64,000 nt of DNA. It comes from Pyrococcus sp. ST04 (GTDB lineage: Archaea; Methanobacteriota_B; Thermococci; Thermococcales; Thermococcaceae). The stretch spans positions 1,095,348-1,159,347 of the forward strand of contig NC_017946.1 of the NCBI RefSeq assembly GCF_000263735.1. The letters run 5' to 3'. Made by a program: the position numbers and the translations under genes. Positions 17,429 through 27,229 of this stretch are shown piece after piece. Position 1 is the first letter of the stretch; each line of letters begins with the position of its first letter. A model generated the notes under the pieces. The model saw only the letters and a list, made by a program, of their open reading frames with translations, had not been told where the DNA came from and did no database searches.

Positions 17429-18370
17429 CTAGAATCCAATCTTAACCTGCATTCCTGCCCAAAATACTGCCCCTGCCATCATTGAAACAAGGATTCCATA
17501 CTTTGCACCAGCTGAAAATTTTCCCTCTCTTATTATTCCAATTCCCAGTCCTGTTATAAATCCTTGGATAATTGAGAATAGCCATAAGATTATTCTCAGT
17601 TCATTAACTGGTATTTGAACCTCCATTCCAGAGTACGTCATCATAGTTGCTATGTTCGAAATTACAGCAACAATAAATGGACCGACAAACCCTCCAGAAG
17701 TTATGAAGAACATCATTTGCATTCCGGTAGACGCCTTTCTCTCTTTCTTTATCCTTAGGACTTCCCTGACATCATTACCCACGGCTACAAGAACGTCTGC
17801 CATTGGGGCACCTCTTTCAAGGGCTTCAATTATTATCATCATTGCCCTGTATATAACCTCGGATTTTTTATTCCTCAGTGCAAATGCCCTTAAGGCATCT
17901 ATAGTTGGTCTACCCCTCTTAATTTCTGCTACGGTTCTTCTAAATTCTTGGGTTAGAGCTCCGAATTTTGCGTTTGTTAACTCTTCAAGAGCTTCGGAAA
18001 AAGATACACCTGCTCTCAAAGAGCCTGCAAGGTAAAAAAGAGCATCCGGAAGAGCTTTTTCCATTTCATCAATTCTTCTTGAAATTCTAAGGTGAGGATA
18101 GGCGTATCCTATTCCAAGGCTCCCAAATAAAAATCCAAGTGCCAGGAGAGTGATATTATTACTAAAAATGAATAGTATCGCACCAATGATGATCCCTATT
18201 ATTAGTGACAATACTATATATTCAGATGCCTTGAAGTCAATACCAGCTGAATATAACAGAATATCATATCTTTTAAGTGCCCTCCTTGGCACGATTCTTT
18301 CTATGATTCTCGTTAATATTGGAGTTATTACTCCTTTCTTTGCCTCACCACGTCTTTCCAATAATATCAC
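17429..18370 (-). CDS. Type II/IV pilus assembly membrane protein (TadC/FlaJ-like, T2SF domain)
   Basis: A 313-residue membrane protein with N-terminal helices, a central cytoplasmic T2SF helical bundle (AGSLRAGVSFSEALEELTN around 125-145; GAPMADVLVAVGNDVREV near 200) and C-terminal helices. It is the second of two paired platform proteins, as in Tad loci (TadB and TadC). It overlaps the upstream TadB-like gene by four bases (ATG within ATGA-type junction). It would form the inner-membrane platform driven by the ATPase at 19453-22293. Confidence 0.85.
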   Translation of the reverse strand: MILLERRGEAKKGVITPILTRIIERIVPRRALKRYDILLYSAGIDFKASEYIVLSLIIGIIIGAILFIFSNNITLLALGFLFGSLGIGYAYPHLRISRRIDEMEKALPDALFYLAGSLRAGVSFSEALEELTNAKFGALTQEFRRTVAEIKRGRPTIDALRAFALRNKKSEVIYRAMMIIIEALERGAPMADVLVAVGNDVREVLRIKKERKASTGMQMMFFITSGGFVGPFIVAVISNIATMMTYSGMEVQIPVNELRIILWLFSIIQGFITGLGIGIIREGKFSAGAKYGILVSMMAGAVFWAGMQVKIGF

Positions 18371-19437
18371 CTCGGCTCAGCTCTCTTTATCATAATTATC
18401 ATTATTACAGAAAGCATCGGAAATGCAAATAGCATTAGAACTACAAGGCCAGATATTGTAATTACGAGCCTTTTAGCTAGTAAAGATCCTGCCAAAATTG
18501 CCACTATCAAAAGTGTAGGCATGACGACAGACATGAACATATATACGAACGATAAGCCATTTATTTTCTGCACATAGTCCATTAGCTTGATTCTATACTC
18601 AAATGCAAACTCATCTGCCATTTTATATAGGATATCTGCAAGATTTCCTCCAAACTTTATTGCTCTTAATATCTGTTTAGTTACCTTAACTACGTTATCA
18701 GAAGCCATTCTCTCCTCGAATCTTGAGAGAGCATCCTCAAAACTTGCACCTTTATGCATGTCCTGGACTATCATTTGAAACTCCTCTGAGATAACCCCAT
18801 AATCAGCCTTCGCAACGGAAACCATTGCCTCTGCTATTCCAACACCAGCACTTAATAGAGAGGCCATATGCCTAAGGACATATGGAAGGGCCCTCTCAAC
18901 CTCTTCAACTCTTCTCCTCCAAACGAGCTTTGGATATATCCTCATGTAGAAAAAGCCCAGGATAAAGCCAAGAAAGGCCAATAAAATAGCTAAATCCCAA
19001 GGAAGATATATTATTATTGCAAAAGCTAGGCTCATTAGGGAGACTATTATACCAACAGCCAACATAAGGGCTACGTACTTTTCTTTGGACATTGTTATAT
19101 TAGCTCTGTATAGATCAATTTCAAGACCCTTGATTGACTTACTTAACGATTCAACGGGACCTCGGAAGTATTTAAGAAATCCCTCAGCAATTCTCTCTGA
19201 GAGAGGTGTCTTCTCAATAACTTTCTCACGCCATTCAATTGTCTCCTCTATTAACTTCTCTTCCTCTTTGGCCTTCTCCTCCTCTATTTGCTCCCTCATC
19301 TGTTTAAGATATTCGAGCCTCTCCTTTATTGATACTCCCCTCTCTGGGATTTTTCTTACTGGAACTTCAGCTACCTCTAGGGTTTTTCCCCCAAGCTTTT
19401 CCAGGAATTCTAAAAATGCGGAAATGATCCCCATCAC
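18367..19437 (-). CDS. Type II/IV pilus assembly membrane protein (TadB/FlaJ-like, T2SF domain)
   Basis: A 356-residue platform protein. A long charged N-terminal region (about 1-115) includes a coiled-coil-like Glu/Lys stretch, followed by membrane helices, a T2SF domain (ASLLSAGVGIAEAMVSVAKADYG and KGASFEDALSRFEERM), then C-terminal membrane segments. Together with the following gene it makes the two-protein platform typical of Tad systems, where archaella have a single FlaJ. It starts 15 bases after the ATPase stop, with GGGGGAAC-type sequence upstream. Confidence 0.85.
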   Translation of the reverse strand: MMGIISAFLEFLEKLGGKTLEVAEVPVRKIPERGVSIKERLEYLKQMREQIEEEKAKEEEKLIEETIEWREKVIEKTPLSERIAEGFLKYFRGPVESLSKSIKGLEIDLYRANITMSKEKYVALMLAVGIIVSLMSLAFAIIIYLPWDLAILLAFLGFILGFFYMRIYPKLVWRRRVEEVERALPYVLRHMASLLSAGVGIAEAMVSVAKADYGVISEEFQMIVQDMHKGASFEDALSRFEERMASDNVVKVTKQILRAIKFGGNLADILYKMADEFAFEYRIKLMDYVQKINGLSFVYMFMSVVMPTLLIVAILAGSLLAKRLVITISGLVVLMLFAFPMLSVIMIIMIKRAEPR

Positions 19438-19452
19438 TGTTCCCCCTCTGCA

Positions 19453-22293
19453 TCATATGAACTCTTTAACTTTCTTGCTCATTTCTATTGTTGCTGCTTC
19501 TCTCTCAATTTTCTTTAGGAATTCTTCTTCATCAATGTAAAATTCTCTAATCTGAGCTCCAACTTCTTCAATTTTCCTTATTCCCTTCTCAATCATCCAA
19601 TCTAATATTAGTTTTCTCTTTTCAATTTCAAGCTTGAGCTCCTCAATAGACATACCTGTGTGATAAGACAATGTTGTAATGAACCTACTTGGCACTTCGG
19701 TTCTTATAAGTTCGTCCTTCGCTGGGTCATACTTATAAAGGAAGTTAAGCTGAACGCTTTCACCCTCAATGCCAGAAACTTCCGCTATCTCCGTAATTCT
19801 TCTTATAGTGCCTTTTTTCCTAGTATGGTACCTGACTTGCATTATGATTATATCTAAGGCAGGAATCATAATCCTCGGAACATTCATCGGTGGGCTCTCA
19901 AGTCTGACTATTGTCTCCCTAGCTGAATTTGAGTGTATTGTTCCCATACAGTTTGAGACTAGGATCCCATTTGCAATGTAGTTGTGATATCCTTCAACAG
20001 TTAGATCATAGAGGTATTTTACTCCAAATGCCTCGGGGTCAATTTCTTGTACACTAACTACCTCGTCCCAGTAAATGTCACCTTTGCTAATTATCTCCAA
20101 CTTCTTTGCTAGAATTAAGGACTCTTTATCTCCAATATCTTTAGCTATCCTTTGGAATGCCAAAGAAATTCCTCTTAGTATATCTCTTCCAATTTCTCTT
20201 GTTTTGCCATCTTCTATGGACTCTATGACGTGCTCTGGAATATTCTCTCTTACATAGTATGAAACCAGCTTTGAGAGTTCAGCCCTAGTGAGGTTTAGTC
20301 TTTCTCTCAGCGTCTTCATTACAAGTGGAGGCACGGGAATGCTGTCTCCAATGAATGACTCAGCATTAACATTTTCATACCCTCTAGAAATTTGAGGAAC
20401 CCCAATCTCATGTCCCATATTTGCCATTACGGCTGAATTGTCTCCAATTCCACTTACTTCAATCCCTAGACTAGTGAAATCTGAGTACTCATATGATCTC
20501 GAGGGAATGCTTCCATACGAATCAGAATGTACGCCGATTGAGAGGAGCATTGCTATTCTATCTCCGGGTTTTAGGTTCTCGGCTTCTTTTCTGAGGATAT
20601 CTCCATGCAGGAAGGTAAAGACGGGGTGATCTTTCGTTAGAATTATCTCGTTTCCGGCCTTTGTTTTGATTAGGATAAGCTTCTCTCCCCTCTTAACCTT
20701 CCTTCTCCAGACCCTCGTAACCCTGCGCTTTCTGGCCTTTAAATCGGGCCCAACACTAACAACTTCAAATACGTCTTTCTCTTCAAGCTCGATGAACTCG
20801 AGGTCTTTGTACTTTCTGACTTTGTTGGAATATTTTTCAAACAGTCTGTCCACCAAGTTCCCAATAAACTCAACCCTTCCATCAGAGAGTTGGATTACAG
20901 AGAATCCATACAGGGCCCCATCGTGTCCAGTGTTCATAGCTGTGAACATTGTCCTCGCTTCTGGTCCTCTGACTTCACCTACGATGATTCTGTCCGGACG
21001 CATTCTAAGGGTGTTTTTAACTAGGTCATCCATGGTAATTTCTCCTTTGCCCTCAACGTTTGGAGGCCTTGTTTCAAGCCTTACCCAGTGTTCTATTGGC
21101 AATTGAAGCTCTGCAGTATCCTCTATGCTAATTACTCTCTCACTTGGGGGTATGAACATCGCTAATGAGTTTAAAGTAGTGGTCTTACCCGAACCCGTTC
21201 CACCAGCAACCAGGATATTGGCTGGCTTAACACCGAGTCCATCGACAAGGAGCCAAAGAAATGCTGCAACTTCACTGTTCATTGTTCCATATTTTATTAG
21301 GTCTATTATTGTGAGTGGATCTTTCTTGAACTTTCTTATCGTAAGTGTTGGTCCATCGAGACTTATTGGTGGTAGTGTGGCATTAACTCTGCTTCCATCA
21401 GGAAGTCTCGCATCTAAAAGGGGATTCTGTTGATCAATTCTCCTTCCAACTTCTCTTGCAATTCTTTCAATGATGTTAAGTATCTCACGTTCGTTTGAGA
21501 ATGAGATGTTAGTTTTACACATTCCAAAACGTCTGTGCCATACATAAACGGGTTTATATAGTCCTATTACCATAATCTCTTCTAAATTGTCATCTCTTAC
21601 CAGTGGGTCAAGCTTTCCATATCCTATCATGTTCTGAACTATTAACTCTGCAAGAAGCTCAACTCTACCTTCAGATAGTGTTGGAGCCATTTCTTTAACC
21701 ATCTTTCTGACTTCTCTCATGAAAACCCTTCTTCTCTCCTCGTAATTTGGTATGGATTCTGGGTCAATTTGTATTTCAACTATAGCCCTGTCTCTAACCA
21801 TCTTAAGCAGCTTTTCTTCTTCCTTACTTAGCTTTGGTAAGTTTATCTCATATATTGGAACGGCTTCTCCTTTAACTTTTAGTATTCTAACATTTCCATA
21901 AACATCCAGAACCTTAACTTCTCCAATATACCTCCCTGGTTTTCCCGTTGGGGATAGAATCTCTTGAAGAGTTGGTCCTATTGGTCTTCTTTCTTCAGGC
22001 TGTGGTTCGGGCTTTTTTAGAATTTCCTCAAGTTTTGGGGCACTTGGTTCCTGGATAAATGCTAATGGTAGTGCTGGTTTTTCTTCCTTTGCGGGCCTTG
22101 TTTCTTTAGTGAGGGATTTCCCCATCAATATGTCTCCAAGTGTTACAGATTTTGACGTCTCTAATGTCTCCTTTTTTTCTTCTTTCTTTGGAGGTGTAGC
22201 TCCTTTCTTAAGAATAGCCTCGAGAGTTAAATTATCACTACTTAAGATCTCATCAATCCATGAACGTTTTTTCTTCTCTTCCAAAACTCTCAC
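19453..22293 (-). CDS. klbA: Secretion/pilus ATPase (KlbA/TadA-VirB11 family) containing an intein
   Basis: A 946-residue precursor. Residues 1-125 are a proline/lysine-rich variable tail; the secretion ATPase follows, with Walker A AGGTGSGKTT (about 363-372), an Asp box, Walker B region IIVGEVRGPEA (437-447) and the His box GTIHSNSARE after the intein. The intein A460-N781 interrupts TGHDG/CMGTIHSNS. Mature length after splicing is about 624 residues. The ATPase powers assembly through the downstream TadB/TadC-like proteins. The start GTG 22293 is followed by an in-frame TTG at 22284 with a better spaced GAGGTG, so either may be used. Confidence 0.9.
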   Translation of the reverse strand: MRVLEEKKKRSWIDEILSSDNLTLEAILKKGATPPKKEEKKETLETSKSVTLGDILMGKSLTKETRPAKEEKPALPLAFIQEPSAPKLEEILKKPEPQPEERRPIGPTLQEILSPTGKPGRYIGEVKVLDVYGNVRILKVKGEAVPIYEINLPKLSKEEEKLLKMVRDRAIVEIQIDPESIPNYEERRRVFMREVRKMVKEMAPTLSEGRVELLAELIVQNMIGYGKLDPLVRDDNLEEIMVIGLYKPVYVWHRRFGMCKTNISFSNEREILNIIERIAREVGRRIDQQNPLLDARLPDGSRVNATLPPISLDGPTLTIRKFKKDPLTIIDLIKYGTMNSEVAAFLWLLVDGLGVKPANILVAGGTGSGKTTTLNSLAMFIPPSERVISIEDTAELQLPIEHWVRLETRPPNVEGKGEITMDDLVKNTLRMRPDRIIVGEVRGPEARTMFTAMNTGHDGALYGFSVIQLSDGRVEFIGNLVDRLFEKYSNKVRKYKDLEFIELEEKDVFEVVSVGPDLKARKRRVTRVWRRKVKRGEKLILIKTKAGNEIILTKDHPVFTFLHGDILRKEAENLKPGDRIAMLLSIGVHSDSYGSIPSRSYEYSDFTSLGIEVSGIGDNSAVMANMGHEIGVPQISRGYENVNAESFIGDSIPVPPLVMKTLRERLNLTRAELSKLVSYYVRENIPEHVIESIEDGKTREIGRDILRGISLAFQRIAKDIGDKESLILAKKLEIISKGDIYWDEVVSVQEIDPEAFGVKYLYDLTVEGYHNYIANGILVSNCMGTIHSNSARETIVRLESPPMNVPRIMIPALDIIIMQVRYHTRKKGTIRRITEIAEVSGIEGESVQLNFLYKYDPAKDELIRTEVPSRFITTLSYHTGMSIEELKLEIEKRKLILDWMIEKGIRKIEEVGAQIREFYIDEEEFLKKIEREAATIEMSKKVKEFI
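19951..20916 (-). other. KlbA intein (class with Ala at position 1), 322 residues
   Basis: In-frame insertion in the secretion ATPase. Block A is ALYGFSVIQLSDG with Ala1 in place of Cys/Ser; block B is GNEIILTKDHPVFTF with the TxxH motif; blocks F/G are YLYDLTVEGYHNYIANGILVSN, ending Asn with Cys as the +1 extein residue. KlbA inteins are known to start with Ala and splice by direct attack of the +1 Cys. The penultimate residue is Ser rather than the usual His. Between blocks B and F are about 170 residues without a recognisable LAGLIDADG motif, but with a helix-turn-helix-like stretch (LRERLNLTRAELSKLVSYY, about residues 662-680 of the precursor). Confidence 0.9.
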
Positions 22294-22294
22294 C

Positions 22295-23257
22295 TCACCC
22301 TCTAGACCATTTAAACTTGTACTCTATTTCAATGGAATTCTTATCCCCTAACCATATTATCCATATTGGATAATCTATTTTCTCAAACTTAACGTTTTCT
22401 TCTTTCTTAGCTTCAAAATTTGTAGAAAGCAAGCTGTCTGTTATATCATATAGGACTATATCTTCAGATATCTCTTTCTCTATGGGTGTTTCGTGCGGTA
22501 TCATATTCCAAAATGTTCCACGAATGTAGGAGATATAATCTGAATAATTCATTGTTGGCTCGGGATAGAAATCATACATTTTTGCATTTGGGAAGAATAT
22601 TGGAATAGCAACGGCAAACCAGTCTCTTCCTAGGGTGACATTTTCTATTCCCTTGTCATGGGTGATATTTAACTTAACGAGTCCTTCATAGCTGTAAAGA
22701 ACTATATTCTTTTCTCTATACTGGAAGAATGTCTCTGGCTTGAGAAAAATTGGGGAGTTGATGAGTTGAGGGTATAGGATATCACAAAATGGCCCATTAT
22801 CTAAAGTGCCGTAGGGAATGTCTATCATGGGAGTTCCAGAGATAACCCTAACTTGTCCGGCACATGGAAGGGTTGTATAATCCCTTAATTTAATCGGAAA
22901 TTTTGTTGGTGTATCAATAAAGAATTTTACCTTCAAAACTTCATTGGGGTATATCCAAAATCCGATTCTCGAATTTAAGATGTTAAGATTGGGAGAGCCT
23001 ATATACCCTGTATCGCCACTTATGTGGTGCAAAACCTCACTCTTGTCTTCCCTAATAACTTCAAATTGATATCTAGGATTTACTATAATGAACTTTGGCT
23101 CATCTCCTGTATTTATAAGCGTGAAGTTTATTTCTAAGCTGATTAAAGCTGTTAAATACATATTGTTGGGTGCAATAACTTCTTGGGCAGATGCTGGAGA
23201 TGTTTGGATGACCAAACTACCAACTAATAATAAAATCAAAAAGAGGGGCCATTTCAT
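22295..23257 (-). CDS. Secreted or membrane-anchored protein of the pilus/Tad-like locus
   Basis: A 320-residue protein with a clear signal peptide (MKWPLFLILLLVGSLVIQTSPASA, cut expected near residue 24) and an extracytoplasmic body rich in Asn and aromatic residues and beta-strand patterns. Two cysteines (about 119 and 147) might form a disulfide. I do not recognise a family. It lies between the DUF515-like gene and the ATPase, one base before the ATPase start, so it is almost surely part of the same operon. A role as pilus-assembly or surface component is inferred from context only. Confidence 0.65.
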   Translation of the reverse strand: MKWPLFLILLLVGSLVIQTSPASAQEVIAPNNMYLTALISLEINFTLINTGDEPKFIIVNPRYQFEVIREDKSEVLHHISGDTGYIGSPNLNILNSRIGFWIYPNEVLKVKFFIDTPTKFPIKLRDYTTLPCAGQVRVISGTPMIDIPYGTLDNGPFCDILYPQLINSPIFLKPETFFQYREKNIVLYSYEGLVKLNITHDKGIENVTLGRDWFAVAIPIFFPNAKMYDFYPEPTMNYSDYISYIRGTFWNMIPHETPIEKEISEDIVLYDITDSLLSTNFEAKKEENVKFEKIDYPIWIIWLGDKNSIEIEYKFKWSRG

Positions 23258-23263
23258 CTTAGA

Positions 23264-24682
23264 TCACCCCGAGATTTTGCCTATAACTAGAGAATTCTCT
23301 GCCTTAAGCACTTCTTCCATAAACTCTGAAGGTATTTCAACGATCACAAGGACTCTAGTTCTATCTGGATCCAATGCCAGGAGGTTAGTTTGTTCTTCTA
23401 AATTCAAAACCCTCCATCCATAACCCTCTAATACCTCCTTAACTGTATCAGGGCTCTTAATTTTTCCTGCTGCTATTGCTTTGAGTACTTCCCCAAGATT
23501 TACATTGTAGGAATACCCCGCAGACAGGGATTCAGAGATCGTCTGTTGGACAGATGTCTGAGAGCTTATACTCTGAGATTCTTGATAAGAGGTCTCTCCG
23601 GGGGAATAGTTTGTAGTAGAAGATTGCTGTGAAGACTTTGTTTCTGAGTAGCTTTCACTCTTACTCTTAGATTGAGTCTCGGCTAAGTTTATTTGGCTCG
23701 CATCTACTAACACGAGAACTACGTATCCTTCTGGAACTAATCTTTTTCCGGTTCTTTTGTCATATATTTCGATTTTGTCTCCTGGCTTTAAAAAGCCTCC
23801 ACTCGCATCTTTTCTGGATAATACGAGAGCTATTTGAACGAATTTCACTTCCCGTACTTGGTACTGAAGCAAGTCTGCAAGGCTTTCGACTTTACTTATA
23901 ACCTCTTTAGCTTCACTCTTTGTATAAATATTGGTTACATTGCCTTTAACTAGGATAACTTTTGTAGTTGGTATAGAATCAATTCTGTAGTAATAGACTT
24001 TCTTCCATAGGTCTAGCAGATAAGGATTAGGATCAATAGATAGTACCTCTTCCTTTGTCTTTGCTTCATCTACTTCTTTCAAGAGCATGTTTAAGGTATC
24101 TACAATCTCCTTTCTAAGGGTGTCTGGAACTTGAACTTGCAATAATGGTTCAAAAGCTATTTCTATGTTCTCTTTCGTCTTATTCTTAATTTCTGCTAAT
24201 TCTCTAGCTAATTTTTCTTCTTCTGCTTTACGTTTAGCTTCTTCATATGCTTTCCACCTTTCTTGGCATACTTCCTTCACATTTATTTTTTGTAATTCCT
24301 CAAGACTATTAGCGGCCATTATGGCATTTATTAGTTGAATTTTAGCAGTATCATTAGCTAATGGTCCTTTAAAACATGCATTAACTTCTGCAATTTTAGC
24401 TTTTTTTGCATTTTCTAACTCCCTTGCGGCTTTATTTTCTAAATAGATGTAAACACTTATTATCGCACCAATAATAATTATTGCTAACACAAGAGCACCG
24501 ATAATTATCCTTTTTCGTCTTTCTCTCTCCCTAAGCATACCAACTCTTGATATTCTTCTCCTCGGAGGTCTAGGAGGGGCAGGAGTAGGGGGTTGTTCTT
24601 CACTTTCACTTACGGCTCTCCCTAACTCTCTAAGCCTCCTTATCTTTGCCTCAATATCCTCGGCCACCGTTGACACCACCAT
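23264..24682 (-). CDS. DUF515-like single-span protein with CpaB/SAF-like region
   Basis: About 472 residues: a basic proline-rich cytoplasmic tail (1-58), one strong membrane helix (IIIGALVLAIIIIGAIISVY, about 58-77), a long charged helical/coiled-coil region (80-220), a beta region containing GGFLKPGDKIEIYDKRTGKRL (about 300-325), a Ser/Gln/Thr-rich linker and a C-terminal domain. I recall DUF515 as a family of such archaeal proteins. The GxLKPGDxV-like stretch resembles the SAF/CpaB (RcpC) region of Tad pilus systems, which is inference. ATG 24682 is given; GTG 24667 (with GGTGGTG upstream) may be the true start. It is the first gene of the pilus locus. Confidence 0.65.
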   Translation of the reverse strand: MVVSTVAEDIEAKIRRLRELGRAVSESEEQPPTPAPPRPPRRRISRVGMLRERERRKRIIIGALVLAIIIIGAIISVYIYLENKAARELENAKKAKIAEVNACFKGPLANDTAKIQLINAIMAANSLEELQKINVKEVCQERWKAYEEAKRKAEEEKLARELAEIKNKTKENIEIAFEPLLQVQVPDTLRKEIVDTLNMLLKEVDEAKTKEEVLSIDPNPYLLDLWKKVYYYRIDSIPTTKVILVKGNVTNIYTKSEAKEVISKVESLADLLQYQVREVKFVQIALVLSRKDASGGFLKPGDKIEIYDKRTGKRLVPEGYVVLVLVDASQINLAETQSKSKSESYSETKSSQQSSTTNYSPGETSYQESQSISSQTSVQQTISESLSAGYSYNVNLGEVLKAIAAGKIKSPDTVKEVLEGYGWRVLNLEEQTNLLALDPDRTRVLVIVEIPSEFMEEVLKAENSLVIGKISG

Positions 24683-25103
24683 TGGGTTATCTGTAAAAAT
24701 AATAATCATCCAGCAAAATATCCTACTATTCATCCATGTTCTTATGTGTTTATTTAGATTTCGCCACTATAATTTTATCCCAAATATTATTAAACTTCCT
24801 CTAGGTGATCACACGTGGAACGATTAGTGATAAAGGTTGTAGAGATCAGGGGAAATTGTCCTGTATTTAAAATTGGAGATAAAATTACTATAGAGGGTCC
24901 AGAAGTAGTGCTGGAAGAAACAGACGCAATTTGTACGCATGCATTTGCATCGTTGCTACCATATATAGTAGCCCTTAGGAAAGGCATAAAGCCAAAAGAT
25001 CTTGGGCTTGGAAAAGGTGAAAAAGCTTACGTTCAGTGTCTAGATCCTGGTCCTCCTTATACCAACGGAGGCACTGTAATATTTGAAATAACGGTGGTCA
25101 GAG

Positions 25104-27229
<2,126 letters not shown>

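Follow-up and report, generated by a model that had tools for sequence, protein, structure and literature searches.

Which machine is served by a compact operon of five co-directional genes in Pyrococcus sp. ST04, and what do the two proteins that precede its motor genes contribute to it? The operon lies in the window, a stretch of 64,000 nucleotides from a genome that consists of one contig of 1,736,885 bases, and a sequence-only reading had described it as a Tad-like or type IV pilus-like locus with unassigned accessory proteins. ORF calling and Pfam scans confirmed the layout given there: five minus-strand ORFs at 17429-24682, nearly gapless, transcribed in the order DUF515, p320, ATPase, platform 1 and platform 2, with intergenic gaps of 6, 1, 15 and -4 bases. 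The start of the DUF515 gene was placed at the ATG at 24682, which is common to its relatives, and not at position 24733 of the mechanical ORF call. The DUF515-like single-span protein, the secretion ATPase and the two T2SF platform proteins expected from the sequence were all recovered by their Pfam families (Table 1), although a 322-residue intein within the ATPase had been overlooked. Pfam scans assigned no family to p320 and detected no secretin among the five proteins. The five-gene order was kept on 14 further Thermococcaceae contigs. A gene of the TIGR04076 family (24815-25147) is divergent from the operon and adjoins DUF515 also in related genomes (L135, L137).

Table 1. Features of the five-gene operon and of the DUF515 and ATPase proteins, with window positions
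Feature	Position	Strand	Basis
DUF515 protein, 472 aa	23264..24682	-	Pfam PF04415, 498.7 bits
DUF515: N-terminal stretch EDIEAKIRRLRELG, almost invariant, preceding the span, inferred cytoplasmic	24620..24661	-	alignments
DUF515: predicted membrane span, about residues 57-80	24443..24514	-	hydrophobicity; model helix 52-103
DUF515: RcpC/CpaB-like core, residues 278-323, with GGFLKPGDKIEIYD	23714..23851	-	profile alignment to bacterial CpaB
DUF515: Ser/Gln-rich linker, residues 331-388, predicted disordered	23519..23692	-	pLDDT <50 over most
p320, exported 320-aa protein with signal peptide	22295..23257	-	relatives and model
Type IV pilus assembly ATPase, KlbA/TadA/CpaF type, 946 aa unspliced	19453..22293	-	PF00437 (T2SSE), 154.2 bits
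ATPase: KlbA-type intein, 322 aa, residues 460-781	19951..20916	-	Pfam and NCBIfam intein models
Platform protein 1, TadB-like, one T2SF domain	18367..19437	-	PF00482 (T2SSF), 78.8 bits
Platform protein 2, TadC-like, one T2SF domain	17429..18370	-	PF00482 (T2SSF), 63.8 bits

The phylogeny of the ATPase and the architecture of the platform proteins set the operon apart from the archaellum. In a tree of 28 ATPase sequences, which has some long branches and from which no finer order is claimed, a split (96/90) divided archaellum-type sequences from a set made up of the window ATPase, those of methanogens and CpaF, which places the window ATPase on the Epd/Tad side; CpaF was also its best PDB match. 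Instead of the FlaI-type ATPase and one large FlaJ of an archaellum, the operon encodes two short platform proteins, each with a single T2SF domain, and an archaellum was ruled out on these two grounds. The sequence-only reading had drawn the same distinction, but had treated paired platforms as a property of bacterial Tad systems; Epd/Clade 1 archaeal pili also have two platform proteins and have been described with a Thermococcus locus as an example (PMC4858521). The window operon fits the system described by Makarova et al. The machine itself is thus of a kind already described, Thermococci included, and not the under-described system that had been suspected.

With the bacterial Tad (Flp, type IVc) pilus the operon shares a CpaF-like ATPase, a TadB/TadC pair, a near-identical gene order and probably an RcpC/CpaB-like core protein. 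It differs from Tad in the absence of a secretin, the host being monoderm, with p320 occupying the secretin slot, in the use of an EppA-type peptidase instead of TadV, and in having its pilins encoded elsewhere.

The earlier statement that the window contains neither a short class III pilin nor a prepilin peptidase agreed with family searches, in which no class III pilin of the window passed the cut-off and no EppA-type peptidase appeared there. That statement had left two options, pilins encoded elsewhere or a non-pilus transport machine, and the whole-genome pilin search favored the former. Class III pilins that passed the Pfam cut-off were found at 643, 700 and 1254 kb, with a second pilin-like ORF adjoining the pilin at 700 kb. 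Small stand-alone pilin ORFs of 57, 65 and 67 aa carry RAQ/SQ motifs with Gln at the predicted +1 position, and the sole Arc_PepC (EppA-type) prepilin peptidase of the genome is encoded at 644 kb, beside the 57-aa pilin. One other ATPase-platform set is present, at 608-610 kb; it is archaellum-like by tree and has one 588-aa T2SF frame. The genome also has one weak T2SSE match.

A machine for protein export or other transport that builds no filament is very improbable, given these small class III pilins and the EppA-type peptidase. Such a machine would account for the distance of the pilin and peptidase genes from the motor, and the operon is known here from its genes. However, the homologous motor genes of M. 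maripaludis, mmp0038-0040, which encode two platforms and an ATPase, also lie apart from the pilin genes and are nonetheless essential for piliation (Jarrell review, PMC4187195). The operon is well supported as a pilus module, and we take it for the motor module of a type IV pilus of the EppA-dependent kind (Epd, Clade 1). We give a probability of roughly 0.7 to the fuller reading that it encodes both the motor and the envelope collar of such a pilus.

Beside this pilin inventory, we observed that the several pilin-like genes of the 1254-kb cluster (1246-1262 kb, L134), which also includes two large exported proteins, directly adjoin a CetZ tubulin gene; the linkage of a pilin cluster with CetZ in Thermococcales has been published previously (PMC9856176).

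The accessory pair was then traced across archaea by a contig scan that covered Thermococcaceae and one mis-binned contig, and by a profile search of genomes that supplied the methanogen loci. DUF515 was found throughout the Thermococcaceae and in several other archaeal families, and was not found in the sampled other families of the class to which Thermococcaceae belong. Outside the Thermococcaceae, 16 DUF515 neighborhoods were compared. Four of these loci (L094, L095, L098 and L099) read EppA, class III pilin, DUF515, an exported protein of 274-293 aa and class III pilin, with Pfam families assigned to the neighborhood genes at L094; we call them Methanococcales-type from their gene set, with M. 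jannaschii as positive control for the DUF515, pilin and peptidase models. The p320 protein was related to the exported protein of these loci (hhalign 96.4%, E 1e-9) and to the DUF515 neighbor in a further group (97.1%), and gave a weak match (26%) to the DUF515 neighbor of the pseudomurein-type group. It is a beta-rich protein, exported by virtue of an N-terminal signal peptide, and its structure model has no significant PDB fold match; the tenth-ranked entry, archaellum FlaG (E 0.39), does not count as evidence.

The slot held by DUF515 and its exported partner in Methanococcales-type genomes corresponds to that of two M. maripaludis genes. Minor pilins of this species are encoded by MMP0233 (epdA), MMP0236 (epdB) and MMP0237 (PMC4858521), so the genes between epdA and epdB are MMP0234 and MMP0235. 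The former is essential for piliation, and the latter, whose product has a signal peptide, is dispensable (PMC4187195). In addition, a transposon screen for lost transformation recovered epdF (MMJJ_08270), MMJJ_08260 and epdJ, K and L (PMC10133366); in the MMJJ numbering, epdF adjoins epdA. From gene order, not from the sequence of MMP0234 itself, DUF515 is likely the counterpart of MMP0234/EpdF, and gene order together with the profile match in Methanococcales-type genomes would place p320 in the MMP0235-slot family.

Two Thermococcaceae genomes (G040 and G093; loci L135 and L136) lack a p320 match and keep the rest of the operon and the pilins, with the DUF515 and ATPase genes about 20 bases apart. 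Such a loss in nature is in keeping with mmp0235 being dispensable and gives independent support to the assignment. The persistence of the pair while its surroundings switch from a motor operon in Thermococcaceae to an EppA-pilin cluster in Methanococcales-type genomes ties DUF515 and p320 to one machine. The assignment of both accessory proteins to pilus-locus families is new. They had been considered unassigned, which stands for p320 with respect to Pfam; neither is an orphan, however, as methanogen pilus loci contain relatives of each.

The M. maripaludis Epd pilus and the window system have in common one ATPase, two single-domain platforms, small EppA-type pilins and, judging from gene order, the pair of DUF515 and an exported partner. 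The arrangement differs: M. maripaludis-type loci hold the pair within the EppA-pilin cluster, with the motor apart, whereas the window holds it within the motor operon, with the pilins apart. The window DUF515 protein also has an extra Ser/Gln linker and a longer stalk than M. maripaludis-type DUF515. An equation of DUF515 with MMJJ_11090 was considered and dropped after the pair had been located in the EppA-pilin cluster; MMJJ_11080 and MMJJ_11090, a MinD-like ATPase and its uncharacterized partner, are fully required for M. maripaludis transformation (PMC10133366).

Three further observations concern the distribution of these genes. In archaeal families represented by L105, L106, L104 and L109, a sortase gene comes after DUF515 and its exported partner; it reaches the Pfam Sortase cut-off at L105 and L109 and was recognized by resemblance at L106 and L104. 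DUF515 is split or interrupted by a stop in a few relatives (G028, G032, G089 and G090), reflecting a frameshift, a pseudogene or a sequencing error. An Anaerolineae-binned contig (L093) carries Thermococcaceae DUF515-p320 genes and is probably a mis-binned MAG contig.

To DUF515 the sequence-only reading had attributed a stretch resembling the SAF region of CpaB/RcpC and a Ser/Gln-rich linker. The linker was recovered as a segment predicted to be disordered, and the resemblance held for a core of about 50 residues. The AlphaFold2 model (mean pLDDT 70.6) predicts one span, the bulk of the protein outside, an RcpC-like core, a helical stalk and the disordered Ser/Gln linker. RcpC (PDB 9GZR) likewise has a single span near its N-terminus with its mass outside, and shares the core; the stalk and linker are additions of DUF515, and the C-terminal halves are not alignable by sequence. 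Structure prediction, one of the checks proposed for both accessory proteins, placed RcpC (9gzr) first among 350,542 PDB chains for DUF515, in a match that was itself weak (E 0.035, probability 0.51, low TM-score), and linked p320 to no PDB entry significantly. Comparison of the DUF515 profile with PDB sequences gave nothing useful.

Profile searches pointed in the same direction. Against the Pfam RcpC/CpaB model, the DUF515 orthologue at the sortase-linked locus L105 scored 30.1 bits (cut-off 28.8) and another orthologue scored 35.4 bits. A search of 396 genomes with the RcpC model returned matches in 19, of which 9 exceeded the cut-off and one, below it, was a Thermococcaceae orthologue. Every archaeal RcpC match that was checked, by overlap with DUF515 matches or by direct scan, fell in a DUF515 protein. 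The window protein itself did not match the Pfam RcpC model at the family cut-off. When DUF515 profiles were aligned with a CpaB profile of 11 bacterial sequences, none of 200 column shuffles reached the observed score, whether for any of the four groups or for the combined set; the best group reached 48.2 against a shuffle maximum of 18.4, and the methanococcal group lay barely above the shuffles (21.2 versus 20.1). The aligned core covered about 30-57 residues and follows the pattern GGF-x-x-PGD-x-(V/I)-(D/N/E)-(V/I). A match of RcpC over the C-terminal half of DUF515 was dropped, as no significant profile match was obtained between the C-terminal halves.

Gene order adds to the case for core homology. 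The order DUF515, p320, ATPase, T2SF, T2SF parallels that of a Tad locus on a Moraxella plasmid (cpaB, secretin, ATPase, T2SF, T2SF) and that on a Streptomyces plasmid (SAF protein, unknown protein, CpaF, T2SF, T2SF); a brief, improvised query served in one of the plasmid searches, solely for locating Tad loci. Each of these lines is modest alone, and in combination they make homology of DUF515 and RcpC, limited to the core, likely. They suggest that archaea possess a counterpart of the Tad collar.

In the same pilus machine, DUF515 could instead be a stator or scaffold that is specific to archaea and has no kinship with RcpC, with GGF-x-x-PGD-x-(V/I) a common beta motif reached independently. 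The confinement of the alignment to the core, the non-significant C-terminal half, the failure of the RcpC model to detect the window protein and the appearance of a MinC beta fragment (E 0.39) when the DUF515 profile was compared with PDB sequences would all fit this explanation. We consider it unlikely, however, since orthologues exceed the RcpC cut-off, RcpC matches are specific to DUF515 proteins, none of the 200 shuffles reaches the observed score, RcpC ranks first of all chains searched and the operon slot matches that of Tad.

The best reading of DUF515 is that of an envelope collar above the platform, an archaeal counterpart of RcpC that works without a secretin. RcpC assembles in the periplasm into a dodecamer, which conveys the Tad filament onward from the platform to the secretin (PMC12307814). 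The paper on its structure reports no homologue of known function (PMC12307814), and Denise et al. name RcpC solely as an accessory part of the Tad model. A study of pseudomurein methanogens has already given a domain-based RcpC/CpaB label to a protein with a neighboring sortase E (OG0001177/OG0001178, PMC11915815), and its accessible part draws no link from this protein to DUF515 or EpdF. The DUF515 orthologues at L105 and L106, which match RcpC and lie near a sortase, are likely of the same family. Pseudomurein-type neighborhoods, unlike the window operon, lack motor genes and have a sortase. Subscription papers and supplementary tables aside, we found no published link between DUF515/EpdF and RcpC; an arCOG-level DUF515 entry in the 2016 census is possible.

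DUF515/EpdF may be the archaeal RcpC/CpaB homologue, and a collar on the platform in single-membrane archaea may predate the transfer of the machine to bacteria as Tad. Bacteria would then have placed a secretin in the operon slot held by the p320 family in Thermococcaceae, RcpC being ancestral and secretin binding a later addition. We regard this scenario as evenly poised. If an archaeal RcpC counterpart is real, it gives the Tad collar an origin and DUF515 a function, in a slot already tied to M. maripaludis piliation, and makes collar function without an outer membrane testable in tractable archaea.

In the proposed mechanism, the spliced ATPase would drive the two platform proteins. Small pilins from loci elsewhere in the genome, once processed by the sole EppA-type peptidase, would be inserted by these platforms into the growing filament. 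DUF515, anchored by one membrane helix and with most of its mass outside, would stack on the platform as a collar and guide the filament across the gap beneath the S-layer without a secretin, a role likened to that of RcpC between inner membrane and secretin in Tad pili. The p320 protein would be an exported accessory, situated at the collar or close to it, whose gene can disappear while the other operon genes are kept. Formation of the collar or ring, its size and its contacts with p320 and the S-layer are features that we infer.

By analogy with M. maripaludis, the filament may serve adhesion or DNA uptake, and we propose the operon as a locus for one of these functions in Thermococcales, for which we found no published test. 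That it serves mainly DNA uptake (natural competence), and not adhesion, is conceivable but less likely than not. Transformation is lost in M. maripaludis when epdJ, K, L, F or eppA is mutated (PMC10133366), and competent species are recorded among Thermococcales (PMC7137780). In contrast, the same pili mediate attachment in M. maripaludis (PMC4371748), the operon has no DNA-specific component, and no Thermococcales mutant was found in the literature searched.

The intein interrupting the ATPase has Ala as its first residue and Cys at +1, and its best PDB match was the M. jannaschii KlbA intein (2JMZ, from MJ0781), with which it shares the host protein and both of these residues. Intein-free relatives read MNTGHDG-CMGTIHSNS exactly at the insertion point of the window intein. 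In the ATPases of relatives the site is either empty or filled by a far larger intein that has LAGLIDADG-like motifs (entire ATPase 1140-1224 aa); inspection by eye recognized no LAGLIDADG core in the window intein. At 322 aa, it is larger than the 168-type mini-intein of M. jannaschii KlbA, and it is an intein of an already known kind.
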